Positions 11,088 through 45,100 of a stretch of DNA of 54,650 nucleotides are shown here, in pieces (position 1 is the first letter of the stretch; each line of letters begins with the position of its first letter). A program made the position numbers and the translations under genes. Source of the stretch: Heterotrichella gracilis (taxonomy: Eukaryota > Sar > Xanthophyceae > Tribonematales > Xanthonemataceae); NCBI GenBank assembly GCA_032358255.1, contig JAULBX010025875.1:1-54650 (forward strand), in the 5' to 3' direction. The notes under the pieces were generated by a model. That model worked only from the letters and a program-made list of their open reading frames with translations. It was not told the DNA's origin and searched no databases.

Positions 11088-14000
11088 ATGTCCCTCCACA
11101 CAGACGACACAATGCTTAGCGCCCGCGCTTCAGCCTCTGTCATGCCCTTGTTGGTTGAATCCCCTGCCCCTCTTCTGGAGGGAAAACAGCTCCACTCCAC
11201 AGCTCAGATGTCCGACAGAAAAGCATCCATCGACACAAAGACAGCAACGGACCGAAAGGCATCTGTGAACCGAAAGGCGTCGGTAGATCACAGGCCCTCT
11301 GCAGCGCAACTATCCAAACCCCGCAGAGGGTCTACCATTGCCATCACCATCGGCCACAGGGTCCTTTCACGCAAACAGCGTACCGCCATCCTTAGAGTGC
11401 TCGACTCACCCCCTTGCCAGCTCCTCATTCTCTTCCTCCTCCTGTTTGCCCTCTTTGCCGCTGATGCGGTGGCCGCGGTTTCAGCACCTGACAGCGTAGG
11501 GCCATACATAGACGCGGTGCTGCTGATCTGCCTGGGGTTCTTCATGGTAGAGATCACGCTGGGTGTGCTGTGCCGAAGTAGCACCAGCAGGCTGACGCTA
11601 ATGCTGGATATAGTGGGGACCCTGTCTATCCTGGTGGACTTGACGTGGATCCAAGCGGCAATGGAGGGCTCGGGGGGGCACAACCAGGCCAACAGGTATG
11701 GATGCACACTAGCATGCTTGGCAACTTTATGTAATGCATGGCGAATGACAAGTCATGCATATCTGTGGCTTTATTATCCAAAAGGAAAGGTTGTCAGGCA
11801 CTCAATTCACTGCCGCATGACCAATACATGTTATCAGATATTGTAGCACCCATCACACCCATCACAGTGGGTCACGCACATGCGTTTATGTTGTTGGACA
11901 CACCGGCATTTACATCTTACCCACTGGGCAACACACGAATCACACCACATCACGTTTTCATCATGATACCTGTTTCCTGTATCACCAGAAATTTGGGTAC
12001 ATCAACCTCCCCAAAGGCCTCTCGTGCAGGGATGCCATCAGTGCAAATTGCTAGGCCACTAATCACACCTACAAGTACCACCCAGTGGAAAATGTGTCCA
12101 TATTTAAAGCCAACAGCACACCTTTGTGCACCATGTGCAGGAATGCCATCATGAGCACGCGGGCAAGCAGGCTCACCAGGGTTCTTAGGGTTATTCGAGT
12201 GCTGCGAGTGCTGCGCATTGTCACCCTTATCATGACCATGCTTGCTAAGAAAAAAGGGGACTCCAAGGAGACCTCTCCGTCTGCCATTGGGCAGAAAATA
12301 GCAGATTCAATTGCACACCAGGTCAGCGCCTCGGAATGCATAAGGGTTCATTAGTTATTTTGAGGTGACGCTTGTTGCTTCGGGGTATTTACGGCAATGG
12401 CAAGGGGTACAAAGCATATGTTGTCCAACAGCAGATGAGTATCGTGGAAAATATAGTAATTGGAGTACTATACATTCCAGACTACTATATATAGTAAACT
12501 AAAATATTGTAAAATCCAGAATACATAAATTAAGAACTGTGCTAAGCACCACGTGTTCTTAATGTATGCACAACCAGTGGACGCTGCCTAACACTATTAC
12601 CCTCATTGTGCAGGTTGCCCTTTTGGTCATCCTGGGCATGGTTGTTGCTGTGATGCTCAACTATGATCAGATTGACCAGGCAGCGGATGCGTTTGTGGTT
12701 GTGCTAGCGGGCTATGTGGGTAGCACTAGGGCACAGATGCAGCCACAAGTGGACAACTGCTTCAGGTAGGGTAACAGACGCAGGGCACAGATGCAGCCTA
12801 TATTGGACATTGGCTTTATTTAGGGATGCAGGGATTGGTGTTTTTGGGGGCTTGCGGTGAAATTTGGGGCGTATTCTGTACTGAGATTGTGCTACAGGCT
12901 GACTGCTGGTGCGGAATGCATGGCCTGGGCATAAACCTTAGTGGTATTTCGTCAATATGTTGAAAACAAACAGTAAAAGAGAAAAAACAGCATGTAAAGT
13001 GCCGAGGGTGGAAGGTGCCTTGTTTGCCTGAACAACTGTTGGCCCCCCAAGTTTATAGTCCCGTGTGTTGTGCTGCTCATTGCAATACTACAAATGTGGT
13101 ATATTTATTGTTCACCATTTTATATGACTGCATGTAATGCTGAAATGGTCATAACATGTTTTCTACTGCTGCCGCCAGATTCTTCAACACTACAGAACTC
13201 AACGCCGCCAGTGCGGTGAGCCTGGTGGTGGGGAATGAAACATTTCTGACTGGGAACACCATCAACCAGAGGGCTAAAGATAGGTAAGCAATGTGATGAC
13301 AAGCAACCATCGTGACTTTGTGCACCGTGGCACGTGCTAGCAAGCCTACACCGTGTAGACATTATATCTACAGGATACGGTTTCTGCAGTTCTAATTTTT
13401 GTTGCATGCATGTTCTGTTTTGTAATTTTTATTCCTTCCAAATACTAATGCGCTGACCCCACTCTCCCCATTGCCACAGCGCTCTGTATCTCAGCTCCCA
13501 TATGGATGTGGCCCTCCTCCTAGACATCTCAGGACGCAACCAGAAGTCCGCAATCTACAGCATTGGCATGATGCTGTGCATCATTGCCGAGCTTGCCATA
13601 TTCATCGCCATTTTAAACCACGGTATTGCCCAGGTATGGTAGGAATACGAGTGGGTAGGAGGTTACACTGTTACTCTAACCTGTTTGCTATCTTATTTCC
13701 CAGAGTGCATATTCAAGGACGAACTGCATATATATAGGTATAAGTTTACCGTGGGCATTCTTACATCATACAGGTGCTGGTGAAGCCGCTGGAGCGAATC
13801 TTCAACACCATCAAGACGCATGCGGCACAGGTCATGAAGGCACTGAAAGTAGATGAGGTGAGACTTACTCGCCCAATTGGGATAACTTCTACAATTGTGT
13901 CACACTTGTATGGTATTTGTAAATATAACAATAAAAACATTGAATAATACACCCAATGCTTGTTGCAGCCAGGTGCCTTGCAAGGCAAACAAACTATTGG

Positions 14001-17000
14001 TATGGATTGGAAAAGTATGATTCATGTACATTTTCTACACTGTGCGATGACGAAGACAAGTACCGTATATCTCCTGAACTTTTCACTTCAAAATACAGCT
14101 GTTACTAGTTTGTCTCCCCCTCACGTTTAGGAGGAGGCCACTAATGAGGGTGGTGAGGAGAGCGAAGTTAATGAGATGAGCACTGTGGAGGTGGCGGTGG
14201 AGAAGATGGCACGCTTGGTGTGCCATGTGGGCAACAGTAACAACAACAACAACCTCATCAGCAAGGTCCTGCAGGTGGGTGCCCATGCAACTCTACAGAA
14301 TATCAACAATTAGAAGATGTCAAAACAACAGAAGATAATCGCGATCAACAGGGTTGATCTAGTGCCATATTTGTGGTTGGACAAGCCCATATTAGTGGTA
14401 ATTTTTGACCAGGCCCATCCAATCAACTGCACTTAAGATGCAGGCAGCAGCGCTGCATGTGCAGTAGTATCAGAACTCCCTCTGAGTAGCTTACAAGCAA
14501 CCCCCAACCCCCTGCGCTATCACCGAATACTTCACTATTATCTTTGTAGGAAAGCAATGCTGACCAGAGCACGCAGCAGTGGCTAAACCAGTACGTGGAT
14601 AACCCTGGGCCATCCCTGGGAGCCGTGCCTGAGAAGCTGCCCATGCAAAAAAAGAAGAGCTCTCTCATGGGTGCGCAGAACTAGCTTGTAATCCTCTGCA
14701 TTGTCCTCAAAACATGTCCTCTTCTGGGTAGGATCGTATCGTTGCTGTGATTGCAGTAATCATGGCGAAGGACTCCTCGGGTCAATTGAAAAACAGAAGG
14801 ATTCCCCAGTTCCCACTTCCTACCACACGAAAGCTCAACAGTCTCTTGTACTCAGGTCACGACAAGATTCACCGCAAATCTGTGGATTCCTCCGGAGGCA
14901 TCAAGGCACACAGAGAGTCAAATGCGTCAAGGCAGAGTGGAGTTGGGGGCAACCAGCTAAACCAGCTGGGTCTGTCTTTCAAAGAGGAGGAAGAGGGCAC
15001 AGGGCTGAACAGCGTGGCTTGGAACTCTGCCAACCCACAAAATGCACAGGTGGAAACAAAACAGTGCCAGTTTATACTTAAAAGAAACAATTGAAACTAG
15101 AGAATTGTGACTAGTGTGCAGTCTGCATTTGACGCATACAATTGCAACGCCAAGGAACAAGTTTGAGGGATAATGGCAACAAAAATTTTTATACTCAAGC
15201 TGCCTGTCCATCTTCACGTGCGTTGCATATGCTTGGAAGTATAGATGCATCAAGTAATGGCATGTTGACCTCGCTAAGTTGCATATATTAAAATTCCTGC
15301 CTGTGTGAGTTTTCTCAGCTGGTTTGTTTTGAGCTGGTTTGTTTTTCACTGGCCTCCCACAGGATCTGTTGGCGCATACTGTGTCTTCGGTGGATGCCTC
15401 AGTGCTTGATACCTGGCGCTTTGACGTGCTTGCCTACCCGCCCGACCAGCTGCCACCCATGGTGTGCGCCATGTTTGCCCACCTGGGGCTGGTTGTGTAC
15501 AAGGGGGAAAACATGGATGGGAGCCAGGCAGAAGGGTTTGTGGAGCTGGAGGTTCTGCACGCGTTTGTGAAGGAGGTAAGCAGATATTGGGGAAAAGATT
15601 GCCAATCCATGAAGACTGGCAGTTTTCCGTGATGCAACTTTGTAGACTGGTCTATGTTGAGAAAGCCGGTGCTGTGATGGTATCAGCAGTGCCAAGTCAG
15701 GCCTTGAATGGCGGCGCAAGATGCCGGAATGTAGAGCTGGCTATTGATTTTGCTGAACAGGATTGTGTGAAAGTCAAGTTTTGTTTTATGTATATTTTCA
15801 CACTTGCTGTTACAAAATTTTGCATATGATGATGTGTATTAAAAAAAAAATGTTTGCAGAAATATCCCGTCTGATTTATTTCTAGTATTATCCTGTTTTC
15901 TTGCAGGTCCTCTCCCGTTACCAGGACGTGCCCTACCACAATCTGTTCCACTGCTGCGATGTTACACACGGCGTGTATCGCCTCATCAGCCTCACCCTTG
16001 GCCGCACACACATGCCGGCCAAGGAGCGGTTTGCGCTCATGGTGGCGGCGGTGTGCCACGACATAGACCACCCAGGTGCGGACTCTTGCCGATGTGTGAG
16101 AGTATCAGGACCACACTTGCCTGCTGTCCTAGACCTGCAGTATATATAAGACAAATTCCAAGATTAAACCACCAAGAAATTAAAGTAAAGTATATCTCCT
16201 AGCACGACCACACTGCATGTGCCTGCACTGGTGGCGATGAATGGACGTAGGCCAGTTGAGGTAGGAAGTCTGTCGCTACATGGCCTCGTAGGCCTGTATT
16301 AAAAAAAAATGCAAAGGAGAATTTAAACGAAACAAAATTCTTTACCATATATGCATGACATGGATATGTAGGATGGTTATACAGAGTACACCACAGATAT
16401 GACCACTGTGTTGTACCCCATCAATTCCCCACCCCGTCACGAAGCAATACAGAATATTTTAAGAATTTGTTAGAAAGCCCCCTATTTCTATCATTTTGTT
16501 TTAGAACCGTACAACGCTGCCTTTCCGCAGGGCTGAACAACCTGTACCTCATCAACTCCCGCCACCATCTGGCCACTACCTACAACGACAACTCAGTGCT
16601 GGAGAACAGGCACATCGCATGCCTCTACTCACTCATTGCTGAGAAGCCAGAGTTAAACATCTTCTCGCGGCTGAGCACGGACGTTTGGAAGGAAGTCCGG
16701 AAGGGTATCATTGCATCGGTGCTCCACACGGACATGGTCAACCACTTCCCCATGGTGTCCAAGGTGACTAAGTGGTCAATTAGCTTATTTGGTTGTAATA
16801 AAGTACGCAGCACTGAACTTATGGGCGACAGCTGTGCTGGCCATGCTCTGCCTGCCACAACTTCCACCATGCCAGTGTAAACAAACCTACAAGGAACTCA
16901 ACACACTGCATGCGTCATTACCACATACAAAATAAAAAGAGTTACTATCTGCCGGTGTATTATTATCTTACTCATATTCTTCTGCAGTTGGAGGTGTTCA

Positions 17001-18850
17001 TCGAGCTCCACTCAGGTGAGCTGGCAGCGCTGGAGCGGGAGTCGCAGCAGCTGGCACTGGAGGGTGCTGACCTGGGGTCTGCAGGTGCCACCAGCCGCAT
17101 CAACCTGTTTGCCACGCCGGAGGACCGCCAGTTTGTGCTCAATGTGCTGTTGCACTGCTCCGATATCAGCAACCCAATGAAGCCGCTGTTCATCAGCGAA
17201 AAGTAAGTACTCGGTAAAAACAGTTGAAAAGTGAGGGATTTTCCCTTGTAGGTACTGTTTTCAATCGTGTCGGCACTGTGGATATTATTTGGGGCCCAGC
17301 AGTTAGGAACATATCTGTTGCAAGGAGCTCTGTCAATTGACCACATTCTGTGGCGTTTGTATTATGCCTGAATCCACTGTATATACCGGGCATTGTGATT
17401 GCAGGTGGACGGATCGCGTCATGGATGAGTTTTTCAGGCAAGGAGACCTGGAGCGGTCCCAGGGGTTGCCTCTGTCACCGATGACGGATAGGGAAAAGAC
17501 CTCCACCCCAATGTCCCAAATCAACTTCATTGAATTCATTGTGGCACCCCTATTTGCGCACGTAAGTGTTGCAGTTGGTAAAAATAAATACGTTGCCAAT
17601 TTAAGGGCAGCTGAGGCGTCTCTGTTCCTGTACGCAAATACGTAGAAGAGCTGTCAGACTCAGTAACATGATGCCTCAAGCAACCCTTTTTGCTGCTTTG
17701 CAATTCGGTTCCATTCAGCATGGTTTGGAAGGGAATTCTGTTCTCCGAGAGTCGTGTAGTGGCCAACAATTGCGACAATAAACACCATACAATAACTCGA
17801 ACTCAAGGAGTATTTTCTATATGAATTGTGAATGATGCATGCAGCTATGGGCTGGAATTAGGGACTGCATGCCTCCTCCTGGTAGGGGCCCCAGGCAGTC
17901 CTCCCACTAATCAGATTACAATTTTTGTTTCATTTCACTCAACATGGGCACGAAAGGCATGTTTACCTCTTACCTTGATGCCATTTGCAGGTCTCCAAGA
18001 TATTTCCCGAGGCACGCACCCTCATGAGATTCATGTCGGACAACCGTGCCCATTGGCATGAGCGCGCACTCATAGAGGTTGAGGCAGATGGAAACAAGAC
18101 ACAGGAGGAGAAGGAGGCTGAGAAGGTAAGGCCCTTAAAATGGTTATTCCGAGTTATTTCATATTGGACATAAAAGCTCTACATTTATTAGCTGTTTATA
18201 CTGTTTTATCAGTAGACCAAACCATCGCATATTTTCACGTTTGCGAATGCGGTCAATACCATACTTTGGGTAAGCCACTTTCCGCCACCAAGCTGTTGCC
18301 ACTCTGCAGAAAAAGCTGGTTGGCCGCATGCAAGCCTTTTCAGCCAAGTACAGGGAATGCATCCCTGTTGACATGCACAGCCGCACACAGACGACGTCAT
18401 GTGGCCAGATCCAGCCCACAGGCAGTGCAACAGGCAAGTCTTCTCATTCACAACAATTTGCACAAGGCAGTAGACCGGTTCGTCATATCATTTCCAGCAG
18501 GACTGCCAAATCAGGAGTAACTGTAGTAAATGTACATCACTAATGTGCATAAAGTTCAAAGTAAGTTATATATACTAAATAATCTCATGAGCAAGCAACA
18601 TTGATGGATGAAGATGGAAATCTAAATACGTATGCATTTATCTGTAACTTACTTCACTACTGTACACGTGACAGGTAAACACGCTGCAGTGGCGGGCAGA
18701 CATGGCGATTCCCAGCAAGTAGAGACGCCAGCAGCGGCCCCCAACCACACGCGCAACGTTCACAGCATATTTGCCAGGGGTGCCAGGAACCTAGGCCAGG
18801 AGAAGCAGGCATCTGGCGCATCGCATCAGTCCCCTTCGGGTGTTGTGTGA
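11088..18850 (+). CDS. Voltage-sensor domain fused to a class I 3',5'-cyclic-nucleotide phosphodiesterase
   Basis: Seventeen phase-consistent exons give 1087 aa: 11088-11695, 12141-12321, 12614-12765, 13179-13283, 13480-13633, 13774-13857, 14131-14274, 14550-14670, 14757-15049, 15363-15575, 15907-16075, 16531-16763, 16988-17202, 17405-17561, 17991-18125, 18310-18433 and 18675-18850. Domains in order: a basic, serine-rich N terminus with three RKAS motifs and one RRGS (residues 44-82); S1 (about 111-132), S2 (141-162, with E155), S3 (171-188, with D174 and D184) and S4 (arginines 210, 213, 216, 219, 222, 225, 228); a further membrane helix (264-279); a loop of about 93 residues with NTT and NET sequons; a second helix (373-395) followed by a HAMP-like KPLERIFNTIKTHA; a low-complexity linker (430-610); and the PDEase_I domain (about 615-990). 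Catalytic residues are present: H696 in YHNLFH, H700, H736-D737 in CHDIDHPG, D878 in HCSDISNP, and purine-site Q929/F932 in SQINF. It should hydrolyse cAMP and/or cGMP at a membrane under voltage control. No pore loop is seen. The last intron is GC-AG. The start is the first in-frame ATG of exon 1; upstream 5' exons cannot be excluded. Confidence 0.93.
18434..18674 (+). other. GC-AG intron (last intron of the voltage-sensor phosphodiesterase)
   Basis: The donor reads ACAG|GCAAGT, which is consensus except for GC in place of GT, and the acceptor is GTGACAG. Joining phase 1 to phase 1 continues the reading frame for 58 more codons to a TGA. No nearby GT donor keeps that frame open to the same end. 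Confidence 0.7.
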
Positions 18851-33429: not shown

Positions 33430-35135
33430 CTACCTATACGTTATCTCCCCTGGAGGATTGCCGATGCGCATGTGTGTCTGCTGCGTCAGCGTGCGGTGGT
33501 CTGCCGATAGAATGAAAGTATCCTCGCACTCGCCACCATACGGGTCATCCCACTGCACCCTGCACACAGGTAATTTACACGTGAGGGCGAGGTCACACAT
33601 GTGAGCAGCAGTGCCTGTGGTCCAGTGCCACTGGTGCATACCAAGGTGCGCCGGTGGAAGTGTACCGCGCCCCACAAGGCATAATGCCTACCTGGGCGCA
33701 TTGAGTGCAGCAGGCAAATGCTTTTGTACAATCATGTGATATCGCTCCATATTCTTGCTGTCCTAGGGTGCAAAGGCCGGCACGATGCAGCATGCCAATG
33801 CACTGCGCATTTTTAATCATTTGTATGCATGCGCTGTATGCACGTACTGTATACATGGCCCCTCAGGTGTGCGCGTCACCCGCCCCCTGTGCGCGCCTCG
33901 TCGCTTGTCCCTCCTGGAATGGCTGACCACCTCCCCATCCCAGCCGTAGCATTCTGCCACGTCCATTATGCCCCCTGCCTTGATGACCGTGCGGAAATGC
34001 GAATCTGTTTCTTCCACCTGGGGGTGGGTTGGCAAACCATTGCATTGGTTTCTCTTGTCAGCAAATTCAGTGGTCAAAATGTCAGCAGCAGTTACATATG
34101 CGTGCAGTGTCCAATTTACATGCAAGTACAGCAATCCTGAGCAGCAATCAAATTTCAAAATACCTACATGGCCCATGGCCATTTGGTGCGGCAATCCATA
34201 TAAATTAAAACAACGCCATGATGGAGTACATGCACACTTTAAATTGCATGCAGGTCCGCAACCTGCTGATTTTGCTATATACTTGAATCCATACATAATG
34301 AAAGGGCACAATAAGGGTGTTACGAACTTTATTACTGCTCTGCCATCTGTGGAAATAGAGCAGGGTGTCCCTGCCTTGCTACTTCCCGCAATTAACCCCT
34401 AATCCCTGGACTCTACACAGTCATTCTCAATTAACCAACCTCAAGCGTGTTGAGCACCAGCAGCGCCTTGCGCAGTATCCAAGGCAGGGCAACCAGGTCA
34501 CATTCAGCCTCCATGCCGTCACTGGCCTGCCTGCGGCAACATGGTCAGAGATGGAGCGTACGCAGGGCCAGTGCCAGGGCAGGAGTGCAGCTTCGGACAG
34601 GACTGGTGTAGCGCACGGGGTTTACAAGCAGTGCCGGACAGGACTGCCTAGGATAGGACTGCCTGGTGCGAGGGAACCCAGTGCCATATGGGCTTGCCAA
34701 AATAGTTAGGGCATTTGACAACGGCATACGGATTGGCAAGGCAGAGCAAAGCGCTTTGTAAGTGACTGGCAATACAGCGCAAAGCAAACTCCTCATCTGG
34801 CCATACATATACTCCTGAAGTCCATGTCAAAGGGGTGCTTGCCTGTCTTTTTTCCACACCCCCGTCAGGCCTGCACCGGCACCGGCATTTGCACCGGTGG
34901 AGACAGCCTCCTCCCGAGAAGCCGCTTGTGCGAGCGTGAGTGGCTGGAGGCCCAGGGACTGGCGCAGGGTGGTGCTGGTGGCTGTGCGGAGGAGGGCGCG
35001 CTGGAGCCTGGCTGCCGGTGTGGTGGTGGGGGTGGCGGGGTTGCGGCGCCGGGAGGAGAGGGTGGGCAGCCATGCAAAGTGGCTGGCGGTGGGGGTGTGG
35101 AATGGGGCAGCGTGGGCGTGTAGTGGGTGGGCCAT
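33430..35135 (-). CDS. Lipocalin-like protein with a putative chloroplast transit peptide
   Basis: Four exons run right to left: 35135-34843, 34530-34440, 34017-33844 and 33552-33430 (TAG), giving 226 aa. The first about 80 residues are rich in Ala, Ser, Thr, Arg and His and lack acids until near residue 75, as in algal plastid transit peptides. The body begins with GLTGVWKKDR (residues 89-98). It continues with ECDLVALPWILRKALLVL, SHFRTVIKAGGIMDV, HSRRDKRRGAHRGRV, WDDPYGGECEDTF and GNPPGEITYR. This is the pattern of small beta-barrel lipid- or tetrapyrrole-binding proteins that start with G-x-W and end with L-x-x-x-T/R-x-x-Y. I infer a plastid ligand carrier or stress protein; the exact family is not certain. 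Exon 1 ends at a GC donor (ACAG|GCAAGC), which restores frame perfectly with exon 2. The exon 3/4 junction (TAC|GTGCAT to GCAG|TGG) is one of several phase-compatible choices. A TATAG|GTAGGG donor at the end could extend the protein. Confidence 0.62.
34531..34842 (-). other. GC-AG intron in the lipocalin-like gene
   Basis: On the minus strand the donor is GACAG|GCAAGC and the acceptor TTGCCGCAG. The join is phase 2 and produces WKKDRQASDGMEAECD. Reading through instead gives a TGA four codons later. Confidence 0.65.
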
Positions 35136-37280
35136 TGTGGGTTGCCTTGTGTATGGTGGGTGAGAGTGGCGCTTTTGGGTTTGTCTGTCCTTTGGGAATA
35201 CCTGTGGAGGGCTGGGATGTGGGAAAACCAGCGACAGCAGACGTTGGCTGGGGTGGTGGGTGGTGGTGAAGTGATGAACTTGTAGCTGAGCTACCGAACG
35301 CCTGTGGCACACTGTTACCTCCCACTTTCGCGGGAACCAAATGCAGCTGCAAATGCATGCATATCTCTGCCTGTCCGCAAGCCAAGGTATGGCGACCTAC
35401 TATCTGTTCAACAACCGGCGAGTAGTGGGGTATTGCCTTTTGCCCGGGATGCGTTGATGGGTCGGTGGGTTTGCCCATGCACAGTCTGGGCTACGGTTGG
35501 CTCGTTGAGCACACACAATGCACCAGAGCTATGGTGGCGCACGATGAGCGACTGGGTTTTGTTTGCAACGGGTTGTTGGCACGCTTACGAGCCCTATCAC
35601 GACATTTCGCCACGGATGTTGGTCGGGGATGGGGAAACGAAGCTCGACCACTGGTTCGACCTGCAGGCTGCACCGGGCAGTCGAGTAGGAGCTGCAGCGA
35701 TCTGATAGTTGTCCTCCCCGTTTGCCACAATATCAGCACCCACAGCCACCCCTTCCAACCCACCCACCCAACACTGGAGTGCAAAAGCACCCTGAATGTG
35801 GGCGCATCTGCCAGTGTACTTATCATGTGACGAAGGGAGAAGTGCTGCAGGTTTTCCCGTGTTCCGTTTCGGTGGCCCACTTGACACACGCCGGTGACAG
35901 CTTCGCGCCTACGTAGGAATACCAGGGCATACGGGGGTGGGCGTCATCGAGCGAGCCTTGGCCAACACTGCTCGTGGCCCGGAGCGTTGTCTACGTCAGA
36001 ACTACGAAGACAGGGCGTAGAATTGGGCGTGGTCTGGGCTTGCGCAACCAACCCTGAGATACCGGTACGCCTGCCCCACCACGCCTCGCACAGGAGAGGG
36101 CCTTGGACAACAACGCCCATGCTGCAAGGGCTTGCACCGCGTTGTCACCTTGATCCTGTCAAGTTGCGTATCTCGCTTTGTAAGCATGCTCTCTGTGTTT
36201 ACGGCAAGTGACGCAGTGCAGCAGTCCTGCACGCACCCCTACTCTAAAGCACACCATTGTAGGCTGTTGCCCCTTGATACGTTTGGTACGAGCGAGCATA
36301 TGCAAGGTCACAGCTATGGCAGTGAATCAGAGAGGCCCCGGTTCCACTGCGATGCACGCTACCACTCAGTGGCTCACCGTTGTAGAAAATTCCCGGGACG
36401 TATCCTTCGTAATGTCACCGTCACGTGTTTGAAGAAAACCCCCTGGTGGTGATGTCCAGTTCATGCTGCTGCGTTTATGCAATAGTGTCCGCGTGGAACG
36501 ACGGGTGCTGGCACACAAACACTCTGCTAGCGGTTGCAAGACACGTTTTTGACTCCCAGTTTTCTCGGTTTTGCCATAGCACTGCCAGCAGTCCTCATCA
36601 CCACCCCACACCCCTGCACAGCAGTGTGAAAGCACTGCCACAGTTAGAAAGAAGGAAGGCAAGGCAATTACACGTGCCAAGTCCGTAGGAGCACACGCGT
36701 AATCCAAATCGCCCGTAAAGAAGGCAATGCTTTTAGGCTGAGCAACTTCCAATCACCACCGCTACCACATCCATGCAGGTCCTGTAACAACGCCGCTGAG
36801 CACTCCTCTCACCCCCACCACAAACCACCACAGTCCCCAATCCAGCCCGCGCAGCCAATAGTCCAGCGCCACGCCTGCCAGTCTGGGCTGCATGGGGCGC
36901 CTGGCCAGCACCTCTTGGCATACACAGCGGCACCGCACTGGGTGCAGGGCTTGGTAGCGCAGCTGCTGTTGTTCACACTGGACCACAACCCAAAGGCTAG
37001 TGGCTACAGTGGTTGTGCGCACTGCCACTGCAAGGGGTTCACAGCCGCTGCACGGGGTCCAATGGGCAGTTGGGAAGCGTGCCTTGCAGCCTAAGCCACA
37101 CCGCTCTCAAGCTTGAGGTGCAGCGCAGCGGGGAGCCCAACAAAAAGGGGTTCGAGGGGTGCACAGGGCCCTGTTCCCCTTGGCACTTCCACTCCAGAGC
37201 CAGGTGGACCGTGTAGCAGCAGTGCCAGCGCTCATCCCCAGGGCGCTTTCTCCAACCCAGTAAAGCAGTCAGGGTGCACT
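35136..37280. other. Region between divergent genes (lipocalin-like and WD40), no resolved gene
   Basis: These 2.1 kb separate two start codons on opposite strands and should contain both promoters. Several open stretches exist: plus 35465-35830, minus 36752-36366 with PKSIAFFTGDLDYACAPTD, and minus 37028-36762. I could not link any of them by splice sites or recognise a family. The minus stretch around 36700-36750 reads most like protein. A small unknown gene here is possible. Confidence 0.35.
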
Positions 37281-40200: not shown

Positions 40201-40783
40201 GTCGCAAATCCATGAGTAGGGATGGTGTTATGCATGACCCAAAACCCTTAGTGTAGCATGCACCACTCACATTGTGCTGGGCATCTGCATTTTTGCCATA
40301 CATGTGGCGGAGCTGCAAAGGTATCAGGTGAGACCGGTGGGGTCTTATGCCCAGGTGTATTGGAATGCCAGCCACATAAAACCTGCAGCCACTGGCCGAA
40401 AGATGGGACAACCCTGTGCTCATTTGGAACCTTTAGCCCAGGCAGTGGAATGCCAGCCAAACTTTCACCCTGAAACTTTCAGCATTGTTGACTTCCCTGC
40501 TGAAAACCCTGCACCCTCAATGCTGCCCCAACACCCTGTGCAGGCGTGCGTGAACGGCCTGGCCTGGGCCCCCCACTCCTCCTGCCACATCTGCACCGCT
40601 GGGGACGACAGCCAGGCGCTCATCTGGGACCTGTCAACCATGAGCCAGCCCCTGGATGGCCAGATGGACCCCATCCTGGCGTACAGCGCGGGTGCGGAGG
40701 TGAACCAGCTGCAGTGGAGTGGCTCGCACCCTGATTGGGTGGCCATCTGCTTTGGCAACAAGACGCAGATCCTGAGGGTGTGA
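37281..40783 (+). CDS. WD40-repeat protein of the DCAF7 / TTG1 / LWD family
   Basis: Eight phase-consistent exons give 336 aa, close to the roughly 340 aa usual for the family: 37281-37364, 37697-37775, 38457-38647, 38945-39058, 39346-39467, 39755-39833, 40041-40142 and 40544-40783 (TGA). Family landmarks in order: [182 protein letters not shown] and QALIWDLS. It should be a beta-propeller scaffold; relatives bind DYRK kinases and CUL4-DDB1, or bHLH/MYB factors in plants. Two introns carry duplicated fragments of the exons before them (exons 3 and 7). Confidence 0.93.
38740..38816 (+). pseudogene. Duplicated 3' end of WD40 exon 3 inside the following intron
   Basis: The copy reads [17 protein letters not shown] then ELLDN, against [17 protein letters not shown] and KLLNN in the real exon ending at 38647. 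It is followed by a GTGATT donor-like site. The frame is intact, but no acceptor joins it to exon 3 in phase, so it is probably a relic. Confidence 0.7.
40261..40340 (+). pseudogene. Duplicated 3' end of WD40 exon 7 inside the following intron
   Basis: The copy contains VAELQRYQ followed by a GTGAGA donor, matching [14 protein letters not shown] at the true exon end (40142). The stretch GTGGCGGAGCTGCAAAGG is identical in both. Upstream parts (ATTGTGCTGG) also match. It is open and in frame with exon 8, so an alternatively spliced or retained form cannot be excluded. Confidence 0.7.
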
Positions 40784-42122: not shown

Positions 42123-45100
42123 ATGGATTTGCAGACACCGCCCTCAAGCTTGCCGGGTCAGGGTAGTCAGGGCCTGGATATACCTGGGTATGTACAGCCA
42201 ATGTTCAGATACATTTGTACAGTAAACCACATATCGATACATGTATAGCCAGTATGGCCAACCTCATCCCCAATGGTGATATTATTAAAATTACGCTCGA
42301 GCTCATATACATATGCATAGCCCTATTGCACCGGTGCTAGGCTGTAGGACATAGGCCTAGCACAATGCTAGAATTAAAAAAATAAAAATGCTTGTCTAGA
42401 ATCTCAGGACTTTCTGCGTGCACCCTGTATCTACTGTGTGTTGCTGCAAGTCTCAACGCAACATCGAGACCCTGGCATACACATCATTTCCCACGTGCGT
42501 GCATAGTGACCATCCGGCCAGTATGCACGACATGCATGTGAGTACGTTGCAGGTAGCGGTAGTGTACATGTACATACTAACTCTGCACGTAAGAGGTTCT
42601 CCAACGTTCCTCCTTGTGGTTGTGTCCAGGTCTTCAGATGATGAGATGTACGAGACATATGAAGAGCCGTATACGTACTACCCTGATTTAACTGATCGTC
42701 TGATACATCTAGGGGAGCCACTGGAGCTGCAGGATGGCACCATCGTTTTGGTTGATAACCCTGCCTTCGACGAAGCGGATGTTGCAGCTGCTTATGATGA
42801 GGACATTGCACGTGCACCAAAGCCAGCCACAAGCCCTAAGCGTACCCGTGTCTTCTACAAGCTGTTGGTTGTTGGAGAAGTGGGTGTTGGCAAAACAGCA
42901 TTAATCCAAACTCTTTTTGGCGCGTATGGCATGCCTGCCTAAGTGGTGGCAGCCTTAGACTACTCAGACACTGCTGCAAAGGACCAAGAGGATGATGGTG
43001 TAGATGGTGTACCACATGGCAAATTTGGCCCTGCTGGACAGTTGAAGCTGGCGAGTACAGTGACTGTGGTGGATGAGGATCGCAACCTTGAGATCTGCTT
43101 CACCATCCAGGTGAACGATGTGAATGACCTAGATTGTGTTTAGCTTTTAGAATGATCACGTTCAAATGTACTCCATGGTCGCGCTCGTTCTGCATGCTAT
43201 GCCACAGGCTACATTGGATTTAATAGATTGAAGTGGAGCAACAATACAACCACATTTATTCCCAATTGCCCGAGTTACCTGAATTCTGTTATTTTACTTA
43301 AATTCTCCAGCCTTAGACTATGACCGCTAAAGTCCCCTTCATCCCCTTCCAACATCGGCTACCCTGTCTTGTATTCAGAGGATGGATGAAAACAACTCCC
43401 TCCACTGTTCCAACTGCCACAACAAGCATTACGCAACATTTCATTACATTGCCACACAACTACTATGTATACTATGCGTCTTACACAGTTCTATATTAAA
43501 GATTGTCAGAAGATTCGTGGAAATCTCCGGGCAATAGTGCCAATATAGCCAATTACATGGTCCACATGGTCCACATGGTCCACATTTTGTTTGTGAATGT
43601 CAATCCCATGCGCTTTCCAACTGTCATAAACGTGGAACATGAACGTGAACGTGGAACATAAACACGAACATAAACGTGCAGCCGTTGCTTCCACGGGTGT
43701 ATGCAAGAATCCGTTACAAATTATACAGATACCCCTGGTCCGTTTGCTGCAGGAGACCCCTGGCTGCGCCCCCTCCTGCCCCCTCACCTGCCAGGCCATC
43801 CTGTCCTACCTGGCCACGCAGCACACCACCTACATGCAGTTGGAGCAGGACCCTGCCCGCTGTGGATCCATGGCAGACCTGGCTGATCCGCGGGTGGATG
43901 TGTGCCTGTACCTGCTGCCCCCGCACACATTGAAGCAGGCAGATGTGGAGCTGATGGCGCAACTGGCGGAGCACGTGCCGCTGGTGCCGATACTGGCCAA
44001 GGTGACACAAATAAGCAGGGAAAAGGTAGGAAAAGGGGGCCATAGGCATGCTGCTGAAGCAGCAAGCTCGCCCGTAAGTCCACCCTGTATAAATGTAATA
44101 CTTGGGTGAGAATATGGGCCCATTCTATACAATATTATTATTACCTCGTTATATTATGGCAACAACAATACTGGAATATCATTACTGGAATGTTACTATT
44201 GCTGTACTGCAGTATTGTAGTAAGAGTACATTGCAGTATTACAACATCTAGTCAACTAGATATTTACCAGATGTTATTGTGACCCTGCAGGCTGATGCCA
44301 TGGCATCGGATGAGCTGGCTCAGCTGCGTAGCAAGGTTGTGCGCCATTTAGAGGGGATGCGCACCAGCAAGGGACACCCAGTCATGTGGGAGATTCCGGA
44401 GGAGATGCGGCAGCGCAGTGGGCCGCCTGTGATGGTGCCTCCCTTTGCAACCATTGGGCAAAGTGTTGTTGGCAAAGGGACCAACTGGTACGTTATTTTA
44501 CACTGGGACGAGTTCCCCCCGGGCTGCGGGCTGATCAGCTCAAGCCCACCTAGGCCATGTTCCATTGCACCCATACAGTACTATGATTGCCTGTATGCAC
44601 ATGTATTTTGAAGATATGGGTGATAGATGATGTACATGTGTGGAACTGTGCATGTGGTGCCTGGAGAATCTGGTCACACTGAATATAATTGTCCTCTGGA
44701 AATTCCCAATGTGTCAGCTGTGTCAGAGGTTGCTGTTGCTTAATAAAAAAATATAATGAGTTGATCATATTGAAGTAATCATGGTTTGCCAAGTTCTGAG
44801 TTCTGCCCTCATGCATTGCAGTCCCTTTCCTGTGCGCATTTATCCATGGGCCGTCGTGCCCTGCTATTCCTCGGCCAGATGTGACATGCCGCTTCTCAAG
44901 CGCCTGCTTCTAGATGAGGCAATACAGCCACTTAAAGCTCACACGGAGCGCAGCTACTTTAACTTCAGGGCGGAGGCAATGCGGGGGGCAAGACGCGAGG
45001 CAGCTGTGCAGACTTACACTGAGGTGCGCGCCTTGGATTAATTCCAAGCTGTGAATATAATTAATGCTCGCGGACTAATAAAATAGGCACAGCTGTGCAT

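Follow-up and report, generated by a model that had tools for sequence, protein, structure and literature searches.

The window, a stretch of 54,650 nucleotides from the xanthophyte alga Heterotrichella gracilis (GenBank assembly GCA_032358255.1, contig JAULBX010025875.1, positions 1 to 54,650 of the forward strand), contains a gene that we read, with a probability of about 0.65, as encoding a single-chain voltage-sensing cyclic-nucleotide phosphodiesterase (PDE). From the N- to the C-terminus, the predicted protein is composed of a voltage-sensor domain (VSD, helices S1 to S4), a fifth transmembrane helix (TM5), a presumed extracellular segment, a sixth transmembrane helix (TM6), a cytosolic linker and a class I PDE domain. 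Nine relatives (P0001, P0002 and P0004 to P0010) align with it through the linker into the PDE, at 24 to 39% identity. The open gene model, the domain order, the gating-type and catalytic residues and their conservation in these relatives can be read directly from the sequences; voltage control of the PDE and any ciliary role are inferences.

Hydropathy peaks correspond to S1, S2, S3, S4, TM5 and TM6, with one borderline stretch within the PDE domain. The S4 helix contains seven consecutive R-x-x repeats (R202 to R220); when the whole protein was shuffled 5,000 times, the longest run of arginines at every third position was five, reached once. Nine sequences, window included, have letters in the S1 to S4 columns (P0007 has none there). 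The S2 aromatic (F144) and the S2 acid (E147) are kept in all nine, the D176 column of S3 is acidic in 9/9 and the D166 column holds D in eight and N in the ninth. Along S4, the R202, R205 and R211 columns are basic throughout, R208 is R or K in 8/9 (H in P0008), R214 is basic in 6/9, and R217 and R220 are basic in 7/7 and 5/7 of the sequences with letters at these positions. Such an S4 would be expected to move gating charge. The Pfam Ion_trans match (residues 108-224, 18.6 bits, below the curated cut-off of 25) is by itself suggestive only; the same family is found at E <= 1 in six of the ten module sequences (best 2.7e-5). The VSD identity is supported by the relatives and by the structure search, which found a VSD fold. 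PDB profile matches are confined to S1 to S4 in 20 of 20 rows; Foldseek alone gave no match at E <= 0.001 for the sensor half.

The enzyme half matches PDEase_I at residues 654-914 (profile positions 1-235 of 238, 257.9 bits, E 1.3e-76, cut-off 24.8) and was aligned with human PDE9A. H655, H659, H695, D696 and D837 are identical in all ten sequences of the family, that of the window among them, and Q888 in nine, P0009 having E; we take these to be the catalytic and metal-binding residues and the invariant glutamine of class I PDEs. The assignment to the class I cyclic-nucleotide PDEs is supported, and hydrolysis of cAMP or cGMP is predicted. The preliminary description of this DNA, made from its letters alone, had claimed a seven-arginine S4 at this spacing, acidic partners in S2 and S3, a complete class I PDE with its metal-binding residues and the union of both halves in one phase-consistent gene, and our analysis agrees with it on each of these points. 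Beyond that description are the TM5-extracellular-TM6 segment, a VSD-cyclase in the same genome and a relative joining the VSD to an RGS domain.

The gene lies on the + strand and comprises 17 exons, 3,141 bases including the stop, which encode 1,046 residues with 0 internal stops. Exons were assigned by eye from reading frames and splice signals and then joined by hand; the frame runs open from the ATG at 11112 through the stop at 18850, a second in-frame ATG at 11088 being the other candidate start. Splice phases are consistent across all introns, of which fifteen are GT-AG and one, the last, is GC-AG (18434-18674, donor GC in place of GT). The features are as follows, with evidence additional to reading frames and splice signals for exons, and the evidence itself for helices, in brackets.

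11112..11695, +, exon 1: N-terminal tail, S1, S2 and S3 (VSD profile, 120.1 bits in the unspliced frame, the profile having been built with the window sequence included)
~11412..11483, +, S1 (hydropathy)
~11502..11576, +, S2 with F144-x-x-E147 (hydropathy, alignment columns)
~11589..11648, +, S3 with D166 and D176 (hydropathy, alignment columns)
12141..12321, +, exon 2: S4 with its seven arginines (R202-R220) and the S4-TM5 linker
12151..12234, +, S4 (R202-R220 at each third position)
12614..12765, +, exon 3: TM5 and the beginning of the presumed extracellular segment (profile)
13179..13283, +, exon 4: presumed extracellular segment with two N-glycosylation sequons, residues 309 and 325
13480..13633, +, exon 5: last part of the presumed extracellular segment and TM6 (profile, hydropathy)
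13774..13857, +, exon 6: juxtamembrane PLERIF helix (alignment, profile)
14131..14274, +, exon 7: conserved cytosolic linker (alignment, profile)
14550..14670, +, exon 8: end of the conserved linker and beginning of the variable linker (alignment)
14856..15049, +, exon 9: variable linker (alignment)
15363..15575, +, exon 10: N-terminal part of the PDE region (alignment)
15907..16075, +, exon 11: PDE with H655, H659, H695 and D696 (PDEase_I)
16531..16763, +, exon 12: PDE (PDEase_I)
16988..17202, +, exon 13: PDE with D837 (alignment)
17405..17561, +, exon 14: PDE with Q888 (PDEase_I)
17991..18125, +, exon 15: end of the PDE domain (Pfam)
18310..18433, +, exon 16: C-terminal tail, GC donor
18675..18850, +, exon 17: C-terminal tail and stop codon

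The VSD-then-PDE order of the window protein recurs in eight of the nine relatives, P0007 beginning just before TM5; P0002 stops within the PDE. Since the splicing is open and phase-consistent and eight relatives share both halves in order, a VSD and a PDE in one protein is the supported prediction. Three of these nine bear names of assembled transcripts (P0001 and P0005 by MMETSP names, P0010 by a TRINITY name), and three assembly chimeras sharing one junction are not credible. Relatives were searched with (i) residues 90-430 of the window protein, where 7,991 candidates were scored and three matched at E <= 0.001, (ii) residues 45-440 of P0001, giving eight at the same threshold among 6,129, P0001 included, and (iii) the alignment A2, giving three proteins at E <= 1e-10 among 7,993, only candidates sharing most words being scored. 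As the alignment search returned three proteins, one of them a plain PDE6 (P0011), the distribution of the family is under-sampled.

Between the two halves, the segment separating TM5 from TM6 is alpha/beta by prediction and holds two of the five sequons of the protein. The PLERIF helix after TM6 looks HAMP-like by eye only, and HAMP is absent among the 14 families listed for ten module members. The Pfam accession PF26726 is a precomputed tag on P0001 to P0009 and on P0012; because P0007, which has no S1 to S4, and P0012, which has no PDE, both carry it, this family would cover part of the stretch from TM5 to the linker.

We found that the sensor module also occurs with other effectors. The genome searched comprises 68.5 Mb in 903 contigs, and on its contig 25 (~84195-90784, - strand) lies a gene of VSD-TM5-TM6-class III cyclase type, found by the VSD profile in an unspliced frame (60.1 bits) and by a separate match to the TM6 part further along the same strand (38.6 bits). 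Joined by eye, the pieces give VSD, TM5, TM6 and a PLER linker, followed by a class III cyclase domain that scores 32.9 bits with Guanylate_cyc against a cut-off of 21.9. This protein matches the module profile over positions 2-383 of 398 (161 bits; E 1.4e-45 with the search space set to one million). Judged by this match, the module is homologous to that of the window protein. The module profile gave no match on the three remaining cyclase loci (contigs 376, 56 and 626, 9.9 kb each) or on five Ion_trans loci (~3 kb each), where distant exons may be missed; the best score over these eight control loci was 7.5 bits, and the best of 177,635 PDB sequences with a related profile reached 21.7 bits.

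Among the other proteins, P0012 (1,293 residues) is possibly a voltage-sensing G-protein regulator: its module, which scores 130.4 bits over profile positions 2-369 (78.0 bits for the VSD), is followed by an RGS domain. P0003 (1,348 residues), named CCRYP_018429 and thus presumably from Cyclotella cryptica, has a GAF-PDE, then a VSD (93.1 bits) and then a cyclase in one predicted protein; it matches the module profile only up to position 194 of 398, short of TM6, and no match is listed for the TM5-TM6 profile. P0013 (728 residues) has S1 to S4 followed by a degenerate PDE without the usual HD motifs (by eye), and because its VSD scores only 13.5 bits with the window-family profile, it may have arisen as a fusion of its own, with an enzyme that is inactive. 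In a tree of 13 modules, the ten PDE members fall on one side of a branch found in 74% of bootstrap trees (support 80/77); this support is weak, branches are long, and P0012 and the contig 25 cyclase are possibly joined by long-branch attraction. According to these domain assignments, the sensor, or at least its VSD, is combined with three kinds of effector, namely PDE, class III cyclase and RGS. We tentatively propose, at somewhat less than even odds, that algae and other protists possess a class of modular voltage receptors in which a VSD and a TM5-extracellular-TM6 unit are set on a PDE, a cyclase or an RGS domain; in this alga the opposed PDE and cyclase would share the sensor, so that membrane potential, perhaps with an extracellular cue, would directly set the making and breaking of cyclic nucleotides, probably at the flagellum.

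For the window protein itself, we propose that S1 to S4 form a voltage-sensor domain whose S4 would shift with membrane potential, and that a second unit, receptor-like and possibly adding a chemical input, is made up of TM5, the alpha/beta segment outside the cell and TM6. TM5, TM6 and the long PLERIF helix after TM6 would relay the signal to the class I PDE, which is probably dimeric, so that S4 movement, with or without an extracellular cue, would alter the breakdown of cAMP or cGMP. The contig 25 VSD-cyclase of the same cell would be the voltage-linked producer; the presence of this related cyclase in the genome suggests that one kind of sensor governs both arms of the cyclic-nucleotide balance.

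Several observations would suit a protein that is mainly a ligand receptor, in which the TM5-TM6 extracellular segment senses, S1 to S4 serve as anchor or modifier and PDE activity does not follow voltage: the predicted alpha/beta fold of that segment, its two sequons and the pheromone binding that the authors of a diatom guanylate cyclase/PDE (GC/PDE) proposed for their protein (PMC4726125). However, the relatives retain the gating-type residues in S2, in S3 and at most S4 positions, and a homologous VSD is also paired with cyclase and RGS effectors; we regard a protein that is mainly a ligand receptor as unlikely. The six transmembrane helices with S1 to S4 first could recall a voltage-gated ion channel, S5-pore-S6 with a PDE tail, after the manner of the ciliate and Plasmodium ion-channel adenylyl cyclases; some channel rows of the structure comparison do extend to TM6, at rmsd of ~7 to 17 (e.g. 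6mwa, 7eeb_C, 7vfs_A), and by eye the window protein has a GYVG string directly after TM5. This channel is nevertheless quite improbable, given that the Ion_trans alignment ends at profile position 120 of 241, that the PDB profile matches stay within S1 to S4, that the segment between TM5 and TM6 is predicted to be alpha/beta and that the relatives' alignment shows, by eye, no conserved filter-like string, GYVG being present in the window protein alone.

A VSD alone can conduct protons, as Hv1 does (PMC10651576), and S1 to S4 might accordingly set PDE activity through a local pH change or proton current and not through S4 mechanics, which we consider very improbable. Finally, the junction of exons 9 and 10 falls in or adjoins the variable linker, as it might if two neighbouring genes had been joined by our reading; with phases agreeing at every intron, both halves in order in eight relatives and the transcript names noted above, such an artefact is extremely improbable.

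The single-chain voltage-sensing PDE can be compared with several known systems. Ci-VSP is a lipid phosphatase, whereas the window protein is a predicted nucleotide PDE, and the four Pfam families found in it at E <= 1 include no phosphatase, no rhodopsin and no Guanylate_cyc; Ci-VSP is not known to have TM5-TM6 or the extracellular segment. The Salpingoeca rosetta rhodopsin phosphodiesterase has a light sensor where the window protein has a VSD. P0003 likewise carries a PDE and a VSD in one predicted chain, but its VSD precedes the cyclase and that of the window protein the PDE. The bifunctional GC/PDE of the diatom Seminavis, with two predicted transmembrane domains (PMC4726125), may be of the P0003 kind. 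The ion-channel adenylyl cyclases of Paramecium, Tetrahymena and Plasmodium also join a VSD and a cyclic-nucleotide enzyme in one chain; unlike the window PDE, they combine a K+ channel pore with a cyclase (PMC10651576). The VSD-cyclases of Phytophthora (PPTG_13136 and PPTG_13761; PMC12223298) share their plan, by description, with the contig 25 protein, which would extend it to this alga. They should make the messenger that the window protein should destroy; the latter gives no class III cyclase match at E <= 1, and a module homologous to its own is found in the contig 25 cyclase.

As to novelty, rhodopsin PDEs are already known (PMC7644710, PMC12004702). According to a figure legend in a 2023 review (PMC10651576), the figure covers every protein with a VSD that had been reported by that date; the proteins mentioned in the text are channels, sNHE, ion-channel adenylyl cyclases, VSP and Hv1, with a PDE not among them, in accordance with the voltage-sensor enzymes listed as known in the preliminary description. 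The terms phosphodiesterase and cyclase do not occur in a 2024 review of voltage sensors (PMC13095418). No VSD-PDE paper was recognised by title or start of abstract among the matches listed from the open-licence literature. We read the window protein as a member of an already known kind, the voltage-sensing enzymes, with a PDE as an effector not named in that text. If true, PDEs would join lipid phosphatases and cyclases as enzymes controlled by a voltage sensor, and electrical signals would act directly on cAMP/cGMP breakdown. Together with the VSD-cyclase of this genome, the protein opens to testing the way in which flagellated cells convert electrical events into second messengers, and it would be an obvious basis for building a voltage-driven PDE tool.

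Radial-spoke matches on contig 104 make it plausible that this alga has a motile flagellum; by these and its chlorophyll a/b-protein matches, the genome is most likely that of a flagellated green alga. In Phytophthora zoospores, staining of a VSD-cyclase lies predominantly on one flagellum, although quantification found that cyclase not differentially distributed (both PMC12223298); by analogy, the window protein may have a flagellar link.

PDEase_I exons were detected at two places of the genome only, contigs 337 and 421, so that the class I PDE genes detected number two, including the window gene. The other lies on contig 421 (~34154-35787, - strand). A VSD on this second PDE was considered and rejected, the frames next upstream giving no VSD profile match and being WD-repeat-like by eye. 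Elsewhere in the window, frames at 40238-40783 (+) and 42400-42942 (+) resemble, by eye, a WD-repeat protein and a P-loop GTPase. The genome also contains chlorophyll a/b-protein matches, the best of which has 7pi0_S, 9is4_S and 6kac_S as its nearest PDB chains, 7pi0 being presumably from Dunaliella and 6kac from Chlamydomonas.
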